A stretch of 39,819 nucleotides of DNA from an uncultured Candidatus Actinomarina sp. GTDB lineage: Bacteria; Actinomycetota; Acidimicrobiia; Actinomarinales; Actinomarinaceae. Under the pieces are notes generated by a model that saw only the letters and a program-made list of their open reading frames with translations, searched no databases and was not told the origin of the DNA. The DNA lies in NCBI GenBank assembly GCA_902555055.1, contig CACDQN010000001.1, positions 1 through 39,819 on the forward strand, in the 5' to 3' direction. Below are positions 18,289-23,943 of the stretch, one piece after another. How positions within the stretch are numbered: the first letter of the stretch is position 1; every line of letters starts with the position of its first letter. The translations under genes were made by a program, and so were the position numbers.

Positions 18289-18881
18289 CTAACAGTTATA
18301 ACATCTATGTGTCTTATATCTGTTGAATTAATCGTAAAATTTTCTTGTTTCACGTGAAACATATTTTTATTATGTTCTATTTTTTCTCCACTTGAGGAAA
18401 CAATATATACAGTGTTCTTGTTTTTTTTAATGGATTCAAGTGCATCTTTTGATGAAATGTAACATCTTGAAATGTACAGGTTATTATTGGAAATTACACT
18501 TCTTGCATCTTTTTGCATAATTTCGACATTGTTCAAATTTAAAATATTTTTTAGTCTTTGAAGTTCGAAAACCCTGCTTTCGCTTATATCAACTAATATA
18601 AATTGATTTTTTGGATTTGTTATTGCTACAGGTATTCCCGGAATTCCACCGCCTGTACCTAGGTCATAAACCGAATCAAATGTTTGATCTAGTTCATTTA
18701 TTATTTTTCCAAAATATAGTGAGTGGATAATGAATTCATCCCAAACAAATTGAGAGTCTTTATTGCTAATAAGTCCGTTTTTTATTCCTGTTTCTAATAG
18801 CCAACTATGATATTTATAAAGTTTTTCGGAAAATTTATTATTTGCATCACCCCAATGTGGTATTTGAGGTGAGAAAGTCAT
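18285..18881 (-). CDS. rsmG: 16S rRNA (guanine527-N7)-methyltransferase
   Basis: DLGTGGGIPGIPVAI, FILVDISESRVFEL; position between parA and jag. Confidence 0.93.
   Translation of the reverse strand: MTFSPQIPHWGDANNKFSEKLYKYHSWLLETGIKNGLISNKDSQFVWDEFIIHSLYFGKIINELDQTFDSVYDLGTGGGIPGIPVAITNPKNQFILVDISESRVFELQRLKNILNLNNVEIMQKDARSVISNNNLYISRCYISSKDALESIKKNKNTVYIVSSSGEKIEHNKNMFHVKQENFTINSTDIRHIDVITVR
18346..18361. promoter_or_regulatory. parS site
   Basis: Exact 16-bp palindrome TGTTTCACGTGAAACA embedded in rsmG (encodes MFHVKQ on the - strand). Confidence 0.97.
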
Positions 18882-20451: not shown

Positions 20452-20654
20452 TTTTTACCAATTTTTCTATATACTGGGTTACAAGTTATTAATCTATGAA
20501 GAATTAATGGGATTGTTTTTAAAATTCCATCACTTTCGAGCTTTTCAGCAATAGCTGTAGTGCATGACGGGTAATAAATACAGTTTCCACCACCTAGGCC
20601 AAAAAACGTCAACAACGATCTAGTTATTTGTAGAAATAAACTAATTACTTTCAT
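20439..20654 (-). CDS. yidD: Membrane protein insertion efficiency factor YidD
   Basis: YYPSCTTAIAEKLESDG...HRLITCNP; between rnpA and yidC. Confidence 0.85.
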   Translation of the reverse strand: MKVISLFLQITRSLLTFFGLGGGNCIYYPSCTTAIAEKLESDGILKTIPLILHRLITCNPVYRKIGKNWQY

Positions 20655-20970
20655 TTTCTAACAGTAAGGGGTGTTTTTTAAAAATATTTAATAGTTCTCT
20701 TGAAGAAAGATTTGATGATTCTTTGTTTCCAAGTACTAATATGTCTAAATTTTTATTTTCTTTCAAGCCCCTTACGGCTTCCCTTGTCCTTCTCTTAAAC
20801 TTATTTCTGCCAACCGCATTACTCTGTTTGCTTGAAATGCTTATTCCAAGCCTAGAAGTTTTTATATCATTCTCTTTAACAAAGATTCTTAAATCTTTAG
20901 CGGCAAAACAAAATTCTTCTTTTTTTAGGTTTTCAAAATGAATTTTTTTATTAAGTGCTCTAAACTTCAT
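20641..20970 (-). CDS. rnpA: Ribonuclease P protein component
   Basis: SRLGISISSKQSNAVGRNKFKRRTREAVR core motif; synteny. Confidence 0.92.
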   Translation of the reverse strand: MKFRALNKKIHFENLKKEEFCFAAKDLRIFVKENDIKTSRLGISISSKQSNAVGRNKFKRRTREAVRGLKENKNLDILVLGNKESSNLSSRELLNIFKKHPLLLENESN

Positions 20971-20978
20971 GAGCTAAC

Positions 20979-21113
20979 CTAGGCAGATAAAATTTTACGA
21001 CCTTTTTTTCTTCTTCTTTTAAGAATTTCGCGACCAGCTCTGGTTCGCATTCTTGATCTAAAACCGTGTTTTCTGCTTCTTTTTCTATTACTAGGTTGAT
21101 ATGTTCTTTTCAT
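20979..21113 (-). CDS. rpmH: 50S ribosomal protein L34
   Basis: 44 aa on - strand: [44 protein letters not shown]; missing from ORF track due to size. Confidence 0.97.
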
Positions 21114-21349
21114 TTTTTACCTGATTAAGAGAATAAATGATTGAAGTAATTAAACAAAGCAAAAAATAATTTATTTTATTAAGTTCGCGAAAAGTAAGTT
21201 ATGTTCGCGATAAACAAACTAACTAGTAATAAATAACACTTCTTAAACAAAGGGTTTCTGATTTCTAACTACTGTTTAAAACCACTGTTTACTGGGTTTT
21301 TTACTAGTTTTCAACAATTCTGTCATTTTTAATTTGTTTTTAACACTCT
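21114..21349. other. oriC: Candidate origin region, rpmH-dnaA gap
   Basis: AT-rich gap with TTTTNAACA motifs at 21273-21281 (-), 21308-21316 (+), 21337-21345 (+), and two GTTCGCGA repeats. Confidence 0.6.
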
Positions 21350-22723
21350 ATGTTTTTTTTTAAGGGTGGAGTAAATTTAAATCTGATTATGGAGAATGAT
21401 AAAAACCTGAGTGGGCTTTTAATAGAATTTAATTCTGAATTAAATAAAAGTATTGCCAATAAAACGGATAAATACTGGTTAGATCAACTTAGGTTCGAGC
21501 TTTTAAATAAAAAAGAGTTAAATATTGTTGTTGGTTCGGAATTTGTAAAATCTTCTATAGAAAAAAAGCTTTTAAAAAATATTGCTTCTGTTTTCAAAAG
21601 AGTTGTAGGTGGGTCTGATTGTGTTTTTGTTATTGATAACTCCTTTTCTTCTTATGTTGATAAAACATCATATATCGAAGTGAAAGAAGAGCCTGTTAAA
21701 CAAAAAGAGTCTCCCAGACCTTCATATGATTTAAGTTTTTTTGATGAGCTTTTTGTTGGAAACTGTAACAACCTAGCTGTGACCGCTGCTAAAAATGTTG
21801 TTACAGCTCCTGGTGAAAGGTTTAACCCCCTTTTTGTTTATGGAAAGCCGGGTGTTGGTAAAACACAGCTTCTAAAAACAATATCTAAGTCCTGTTTTTC
21901 TTCTTTTTATATTGATTCTGAGTCGTTTCTAGAATCATATATCTCTGGAATTAAAAACAACGACATTGATATCTTTAAAAATAAAATTAGGTCTGTTGAT
22001 GTTCTATTAATTGATGATATTCAATTTTTTATTGGCAAAAAGGGGGTTTCGGAGGAGCTTTTTCATACTATTAACTACTTTCTTAACAACTCCAAAGCTG
22101 TGGTTCTTGCTTCTGATCAAAAACCACAAGCGCTAAAAGGTTTTCCGGAAAGGTTAATTTCAAGGGTTTTAAACGGCTTGGTAACAGACATTGAAAAGCC
22201 GGATAAAAAAATATTTTTAGAGGTTCTTAAGAACAACAATAAAGACTTTGATAATAATTTAATTTCTAAAAAAGACTTTGACCTACTCCTCTCCCTTGAT
22301 TTCCAAAGTTTTAGAGAGATAAATGGTGTTGTTAATAATTTAATAATAAACAAACAAACCGGTGTAGGTAATTCAAAATATGTGGCAGAACTTGTTTCAA
22401 TGTATTCTGAAAACAAAATAATGGAACTGACTCCAGAGTTTATTTTAGGCTATTGTTCCAGCGTCTATCAGGTTGATGAAAGGTTGGTTTTGTCTAAAAA
22501 CAGAAGTGAGCAAGTCAGCAACGCTCGTCATCTTTTTATATACCTAATGAGAAAACATACGGAATACTCTCTTAATCAAATAGGTCTTTATGTTGGAAAC
22601 AGATCTCATTCAACTGTTTTGTCTTCTATTAAAAAAGTTGAGGCCTCGCACTCTTTTAAGAGAGAAATAAACATTTTCAACAATAAAATAGAAAACAGCT
22701 CGTTAAGTTTTTCTGGTGTGTGA
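21350..22723 (+). CDS. dnaA: Chromosomal replication initiator DnaA (start may be Met at 21389)
   Basis: Walker A GKPGVGKTQLL, VLLIDDIQFF, HTH plus signature YVGNRSHSTVLSSIKKVE. Confidence 0.96.
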   Translation: MFFFKGGVNLNLIMENDKNLSGLLIEFNSELNKSIANKTDKYWLDQLRFELLNKKELNIVVGSEFVKSSIEKKLLKNIASVFKRVVGGSDCVFVIDNSFSSYVDKTSYIEVKEEPVKQKESPRPSYDLSFFDELFVGNCNNLAVTAAKNVVTAPGERFNPLFVYGKPGVGKTQLLKTISKSCFSSFYIDSESFLESYISGIKNNDIDIFKNKIRSVDVLLIDDIQFFIGKKGVSEELFHTINYFLNNSKAVVLASDQKPQALKGFPERLISRVLNGLVTDIEKPDKKIFLEVLKNNNKDFDNNLISKKDFDLLLSLDFQSFREINGVVNNLIINKQTGVGNSKYVAELVSMYSENKIMELTPEFILGYCSSVYQVDERLVLSKNRSEQVSNARHLFIYLMRKHTEYSLNQIGLYVGNRSHSTVLSSIKKVEASHSFKREINIFNNKIENSSLSFSGV

Positions 22724-22827
22724 AATGTTTATAACTTTAAACAGCACTAATCTTAGTTTCTCAATGGAAAAGTTTTTTTTAAACATTTTTAACAGCTTTA
22801 TTATTGTTATATCTATAAAGGAATATA
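22724..22827. other. Second candidate origin element, dnaA-dnaN gap
   Basis: Two contiguous 9-mers TTTTAAACA-TTTTTAACA (22777-22794) followed by AT-rich sequence. Confidence 0.5.
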
Positions 22828-23943
22828 TTGAAATTTAAAACAACAAGTAAAGAAATAAAAGAGTTTGTACTTTCTGTTTCTAGAGCTGTAGACATTAAAC
22901 CTTCCAACCCCTCTCTGCAGGGTATCTATCTTCGAGCTAATAATAACTATTGTGAATTAATAGGAACCGACCTGGATTTAGTTATCAAGGCAAGGTTTCC
23001 TGTTGAAGTTGAGGTTGAGGGTGAGAGCCTTATAAACTCTAGAGTTTTTTCAGAGGTGGTTAGAAAACTCCCTGTCGGAGACGTTGTTTTTTCTGATTTA
23101 GGTAACGAAGTAAAAATAGAAACAAAGAAAACAGAATACAAACTAAGAAAACTAGATCACCTAACCTACCCAAAAAGCCTCTTAGAAGAACCATATGACA
23201 CAGAAACAAGTCAAAAACTAAAAACTCTCCAACTGTTTAACGCACTTAAAAAGGTTGGAATAGCAGCATCCCCAGAAGGCGGAAAACCCGTACTTACAGG
23301 TGTTTATTTCGACAATGAAGAAAGTGAGACAAACCTGGTTTCCACAGACAGTTACAGACTGGCAACAACAACAGTATCAGACCTACCCATAAACGACGCA
23401 GGAATAGTTTCATTTAGATCATTAAACGAAACCATCAAGCTGTTTGAAGAAGAAGAGGAAATAAACATAAACTCAACAGAAAGGGAGTTGCACTTTTACA
23501 ATGAAAGGTACTACACGTCTGTTAGAAAACTAGAGGGGAAGTTTCCCGAGTACAAAGCACTCTTTCCAAAAGAAAACCTTTTTTCCCTAGAGGTAGATAA
23601 AAAAACAATACTAGATTCGCTTGATCGTTCAACGGTTGTAGCGGAAGGTTTTATACCCGTAACTTTAAAAGTAATAGATGAAAAAACCCTACACATTTAC
23701 TCAATAAACAAAGACATTGGGGGCGGTGTTGAAAAAGTTGACATTAGTATTCTTGGACTTGATGTTGGAGACGTTTCTGGTTTTGAAATATCCTTTAATC
23801 CAAACTACCTCATACAAGGAGTCGAGGTTTTAGAGGGCAGTAAAGTTTATTTAAGATTTTCCGGTAATGACAAACCAGCCGTGATACAGGGGGAAGAAGA
23901 GAAATATAAATATCTCTTAATGCCAGTAAGAACCAACCAGTAA
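22828..23943 (+). CDS. dnaN: DNA polymerase III beta subunit (sliding clamp)
   Basis: KPVLTGVYFDNEESETNLVSTDSYRLATTTV, C-terminal YKYLLMPVRTNQ; position after dnaA. Confidence 0.96.
   Translation: MKFKTTSKEIKEFVLSVSRAVDIKPSNPSLQGIYLRANNNYCELIGTDLDLVIKARFPVEVEVEGESLINSRVFSEVVRKLPVGDVVFSDLGNEVKIETKKTEYKLRKLDHLTYPKSLLEEPYDTETSQKLKTLQLFNALKKVGIAASPEGGKPVLTGVYFDNEESETNLVSTDSYRLATTTVSDLPINDAGIVSFRSLNETIKLFEEEEEININSTERELHFYNERYYTSVRKLEGKFPEYKALFPKENLFSLEVDKKTILDSLDRSTVVAEGFIPVTLKVIDEKTLHIYSINKDIGGGVEKVDISILGLDVGDVSGFEISFNPNYLIQGVEVLEGSKVYLRFSGNDKPAVIQGEEEKYKYLLMPVRTNQ

Follow-up and report, generated by a model that had tools for sequence, protein, structure and literature searches.

Few protein-DNA pairs of bacteria are as conserved as the initiator DnaA and its box; the pair is considered here in Actinomarinales, an order of tiny marine actinobacteria. 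No work on the origin of Actinomarina or on the changed box described below was found in the literature searched. The canonical box is TTWTNCACA in E. coli and TTGTCCACA in actinomycetes (PMC4285127). Residues P423, D433, H434, T435 and H439 (E. coli numbering) are listed as DnaA-box contacts (PMC7561715), and D433 of E. coli has been assigned to box base pair 7 (PMC8235120). Non-canonical boxes were described for Mollicutes, where the box is given as TT(A/T)TC(C/A)ACA (PMC3322544), for Thermotoga maritima, whose box ACCTACCAC keeps CCAC (PMC10316083), and for epsilonproteobacteria, in which a class-wide variant is suspected to stem from changes at the N-terminal end of helix 5 in domain IV (PMC5043019). 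The DnaA-trios of the basal unwinding system are defined as triplets whose middle base on the trio strand is always A (PMC8287927). The putative boxes of Actinomarinales share with the canonical box the length of nine bases, the T-rich 5' half and the ACA 3' end. They differ from it at position 6, which is A, G or T and never C in 40 loci.

Sequence data and comparison set

The window, a stretch of 39,819 nucleotides, belongs to contig 1 of a 1.01-Mb genome (GC content about 33%) of Candidatus Actinomarina (Actinomycetota, Acidimicrobiia); Candidatus Actinomarina and Acidimicrobiaceae are its closest relatives with a name. Forty Actinomarinales loci, the window included, were compared with 23 loci of other Acidimicrobiia; the order is represented by one genus only in the genome collection used. 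Orthologous gaps were aligned across the relatives. Shuffle tests (500 shuffles) were performed on 20 divergent representatives, with genome kinship left uncorrected. The own-genome background of the tandem 9-mers and of the TCGCGA pair was determined by pattern searches of the assembly. One assembly (G059) contained two dnaA copies (L049 and L055), 98% and 59% identical to that of the window, on separate contigs, and is probably a mixed bin.

Gene order

The genes parB-parA-rsmG-jag-yidC-rnpA-rpmH lie on the minus strand and are followed on the plus strand by dnaA-dnaN-orf-gyrB-gyrA. The AT skew switches sign near 22 kb, close to dnaA, which fits the expectation for a bidirectional origin. 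No known RNA families were found in 20600-23000. A single perfect parS site (TGTTTCACGTGAAACA, 18346-18361) is located within rsmG, adjoining parA and parB; here the ParB code, a second origin-linked code, has its canonical form and was left unchanged. The region is framed by the following features:

20979-21113, minus strand: rpmH, read from the sequence; upstream edge of the rpmH-dnaA gap
21350-22723, plus strand: dnaA (Bac_DnaA 1.3e-44, Bac_DnaA_C 8e-19)
22595-22618, plus strand: codons of GNRSHSTV, corresponding to E. coli 430-437 (GGRDHTTV), with the S433 codon at 22604-22606
22828-23943, plus strand: dnaN, TTG start, with DNA_pol3_beta domains

DnaA protein

The Bac_DnaA (AAA+) and Bac_DnaA_C (helix-turn-helix) models gave 152.7 bits (cut-off 23) and 67.9 bits (cut-off 31.5), respectively; the full-length model TIGR00362 gave 305.7, under its cut-off of 343.9. 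The ATG at 21350 sits in an element that is nearly invariant in the order, and in some relatives an in-frame stop follows it. Since this position falls in a non-coding element of the relatives in the alignment, the true dnaA start is probably ATG 21389. By alignment, the ATP-binding and oligomerisation residues are intact: K178, D235, D236, R281, R285 and R334 (Walker, arginine-finger and sensor residues in E. coli numbering) were kept in 40/40 loci, with one X at 334.

The motif GNRSHSTV was present in DnaA as originally predicted, with its start 3 bases before the position given at that time, and its Ser is indeed codon 419 of the ORF read from 21350. The DnaA signature [GN][RK]DH[ST]T fails at residue 433, which is S in all 40 Actinomarinales loci. 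When aligned to E. coli DnaA, these loci shared a whole set of replacements in domain IV, namely P423 to N, S, T or V, D433 to S, T435 to S and H439 to S. The other Acidimicrobiia sampled carried D433 and P423 in 23/23 cases; their residue 435 was T or S, and their residue 439 was H, Y or N. Residues R399, R407, H434 and T436 were alike in both groups, except for one K at 399; R399 and H434 are thus kept in the order. With several base-contact positions altered, the alignment points to a rebuilt reading face rather than to a lone substitution. Outside the order, RSH[ST]T with TCN Ser codons was looked for in the other Acidimicrobiia and in sampled Actinomycetota; the matches were scattered, and none of the ten that were inspected was DnaA.

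Putative origin module between dnaA and dnaN

The gap between dnaA and dnaN contains the following elements:

22726-22734, minus strand: box 3, TTATAAACA, putative DnaA box just past the dnaA stop, overlooked initially
22735-22743, plus strand: box 4, CTTTAAACA, weaker candidate, head-to-head with box 3
22777-22785, plus strand: box 1 of the tandem, TTTTAAACA, putative DnaA box, at the same place and ungapped in 40/40 loci
22786-22794, plus strand: box 2 of the tandem, TTTTTAACA, putative DnaA box, abutting box 1 in 40/40 loci
22798-22809, plus strand: DnaA-trio-like run TTA TTA TTG TTA, separated from the tandem by the 3-bp spacer GCT

The tandem, the 3-bp spacer and the trio-like run were present in all 40 loci, and the exact tandem TTTTNAACATTTTNAACA (22777-22794) occurred once in the own assembly. 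In box 1, ACA at positions 7-9 was invariant and position 6 was A, G or T. In box 2, AC at positions 7-8 was invariant and position 6 was A or G; in some clades this box is far from TTTTNAACA (TGTCCGACA, TGTCAGACG). Clades with R or K at residue 408 of DnaA tend towards G at position 6 of box 2, a pattern that follows the clades and proves nothing. Box 3 had an invariant AACA (40/40) and was located upstream of box 1 at a distance of 51 bp in 33 loci, 50 bp in 3 and 49 bp in 4. Box 4 had A or T at position 6 and retained ACA in part of the loci only. Across the 40 loci, AC at positions 7-8 was invariant in boxes 1-3, and C6 occurred in 0 of 160 aligned box sites; the canonical TTWTNCACA was not matched. 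On the opposite strand the trio-like run reads 3'-AAT AAT AAC AAT-5'. The form TTA TTR YTR TTA was found in 20/20 representatives, in which only the first and third bases of triplets varied and the middle base was fixed.

The exact 9-mer TTTTNAACA was recovered at all predicted positions, 21273-21281(-), 21308-21316(+), 21337-21345(+), 22777-22785(+) and 22786-22794(+), as was the one-mismatch copy TCTTAAACA at 21241-21249. A further exact copy within dnaA (22674-22682) was absent from the initial list. The lack of a canonical box, claimed for the two gaps, extended to the whole window, in which no exact TTATCCACA occurs. The 9-mer is low in information. The window contained 21 copies of TTTTNAACA against 10.4 expected from shuffles, so any single copy has little weight. 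The two gaps (about 337 bp) held 5 copies against about 0.18 expected at the window rate, for a motif that was chosen after inspection. Among the 20 representatives, the predicted enrichment was present in the dnaA-dnaN gap, where 11 copies were counted outside the tandem against 1.6 expected (0/500 shuffles), whereas it was slight in the rpmH-dnaA gap, where 7 copies were counted outside the pre-dnaA element against 3.3 expected (20/500 shuffles reached 7). When a box matrix was built from one clade and applied to the other, it contained too little information to single out sites and gave many matches in coding sequences. We infer that the tandem 9-mers and box 3 serve as DnaA boxes in the order.

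Ancestral state and base composition

In most other Acidimicrobiia, the same gap contains in the same orientation a pair such as TTGTCCACA-ATCCACA (7-bp step), followed by a spacer of about 4 bp and CTACTACTA-type trios. Using one regular expression, this pair-plus-trio module was found in 19/23 loci, with near misses in most others; typically, TCCACA boxes are combined with CTACTA trios. The layout is therefore common to both groups; what sets their cores apart is position 6.

A drift towards AT combined with relaxed specificity could also lead to such a core. C6 would have given way to A while the AT-rich genome shrank, leaving weak boxes of the old code, and DnaA would tolerate A6 as Mollicutes DnaA presumably does, S433 and its neighbours having changed for unrelated reasons or lost stringency. 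This is in line with the Mollicutes consensus (PMC3322544), with the genome GC content of about 33% and with box positions 1-6, which differ between clades. However, one of the other Acidimicrobiia with 32% GC (L069) has kept D433, the shared layout with TCCACA boxes and TTATCCACA, and two Bacilli with 23-25% GC (L047, L048) have kept KDH and TTATCCACA boxes with C6; low GC is thus no explanation for the changed core. Moreover, C6 is missing in all four boxes in 40/40 loci, C8 was kept in boxes 1-3 in 40/40, and four contact residues were altered together. Drift of this kind is considered rather unlikely.

Alternatively, the 9-mers and the AT-run might be promoter or leader signals of dnaN instead of DnaA boxes. 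An ACA followed by an AT-rich stretch may resemble a -35/-10 pair, and the block ends with a ribosome-binding site, but the -10-like TATAAA overlaps that ribosome-binding site. The abutting 9-mers ending in ACA, the site 49-51 bp upstream and the triplet pattern would be left unexplained, and other Acidimicrobiia carry a box-box-trio module at the homologous site. A function as dnaN signals is therefore improbable.

Elements between rpmH and dnaA

Three elements of the upstream gap contain exact copies of the 9-mer:

21273-21281, minus strand: upstream 9-mer, not conserved
21308-21316, plus strand: upstream 9-mer, not conserved
21335-21352, plus strand: pre-dnaA element TGTTTTTnnCACTCTATG, nearly invariant in the order, containing the copy at 21337-21345

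The original prediction of boxes in this gap could not be maintained: the positions of the copies vary between relatives and enrichment is marginal, and the upstream 9-mers are probably chance occurrences or weak accessory sites. In TGTTTTTnnCACTCTATG the flanks are near-invariant, and the positions equivalent to box positions 6-7 vary (AA, CA, AC, AG, GC, CG). This element probably belongs to the promoter region of dnaA and not to the boxes, and may serve as promoter or as DnaA autoregulation site. Some 35 bp upstream of rpmH, at 21148-21156, nearly all loci conserve the sequence AATTAAACA (TTAAACAAA), which could be either a -35 promoter element of rpmH or an additional AACA-core box.

The rpmH-dnaA gap also contains two TCGCGA palindromes (21184-21213) whose starts are exactly 20 bp apart (TCGCGA-N14-TCGCGA). 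This spacing was found in 39/41 Actinomarinales loci, the pair is the sole one of its kind in the assembly, and no other element of the gaps is as strongly over-represented. Among the other Acidimicrobiia, 3/23 have an exact pair in the rpmH-dnaA gap and 3/23 a pair with one mismatch. No known binding protein for the pair was found; it is regarded as a putative ancient regulatory element. That the pair, or another element of this gap, represents the true DnaA sites is very hard to believe in spite of its over-representation, wide occurrence and uniqueness, since it is unlike any DnaA box and does not follow the change to S433, occurring as it does also in Acidimicrobiia whose DnaA and boxes are canonical.

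Proposed function and limits of the probable code change

The probable explanation is that the whole lineage uses a variant DnaA-box code, operating on an ordinary basal unwinding system with the 9-mers as the boxes of the order. The layout of the module was observed directly; binding, loading and opening are proposed by analogy with the literature on that system. ATP-DnaA would bind the tandem pair through its rebuilt domain IV and, following the scheme of the basal unwinding system, would then extend onto the trios via domain III and open the duplex just before dnaN. A supporting role in the complex would fall to box 3 at the dnaA stop, which lies in helical phase with the tandem (49-51 bp, about five turns). 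The core would have moved from NTNTCCACA, which other Acidimicrobiia still have at this site, to TTTT[A/C]AACA, with loss of C6, together with the change of the protein.

The original prediction had linked the shifted box to the Asp-to-Ser change. This link was upheld to the extent that the residue is fixed order-wide and coincides with an altered core at the homologous origin site; co-evolution is beyond statistical demonstration, because all 40 genomes descend from one change. The single substitution did not suffice as an explanation, since P423, T435 and H439 are altered too. Position 7, to which D433 is assigned, is still A in the three best-conserved boxes of every locus, and the changed base is position 6. 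With D433 assigned to an unchanged position and A6 already allowed in Mollicutes, the one-residue account is too simple. In Thermotoga maritima, too, a Ser at the D433 position goes with a box that keeps CCAC. Compared with the relaxed consensus TTWTNCACA, the shift of the box amounts to essentially one base, for which Mollicutes provide a precedent.

Tentatively, the code of Actinomarinales may even have been exchanged, such that domain IV would prefer [A/G]ACA and reject C6 via at least four replaced base-contact residues, although this further step is somewhat doubtful. If true, the DnaA of Actinomarinales and the origins of other bacteria would be mutually unreadable. An order in which both sides have changed at homologous positions, with sisters in the ancestral state, lets one ask how an essential initiator-origin pair switches without lethality. 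Origin finders based on TTATCCACA will overlook or misplace such origins.

Comparison with known systems

Among the variant boxes, that of Mollicutes admits TTTTCAACA and TTATCAACA; unlike in Actinomarinales, C6 is still permitted. Thermotoga maritima DnaA resembles that of Actinomarinales in having Ser at the D433 position (2z4r) along with a non-canonical box. The Thermotoga box differs in its 5' half, the organism is not specifically related to Actinomarinales, and no core of the type ACCTACCAC was seen when the aligned gaps were inspected by eye. In the epsilonproteobacterial box it is position 5 that differs, being fixed as T, and the acidic residue and the His of the motif were kept in these bacteria.

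The basal unwinding system (PMC8287927) shares with the module described here the same-orientation tandem boxes, the short spacer, the triplets with fixed middle A and the location in the dnaA-dnaN gap. When TTTT[A/C]AACA is taken as the species-specific box, a box lies <=16 bp from at least three NAN triplets, as defined for that system; TTTTAAACA and TTTTTAACA each have 3 differences from TTATCCACA, for which the definition allows <=2 mismatches. The module of Actinomarinales is distinguished from the basal unwinding system by the core lacking C6, by the 3-bp spacer and by trios that are mostly 3'-AAT-5' rather than 3'-GAT-5', and from the pairs of other Acidimicrobiia, which have a 7-bp step, by boxes that abut each other (9-bp step).
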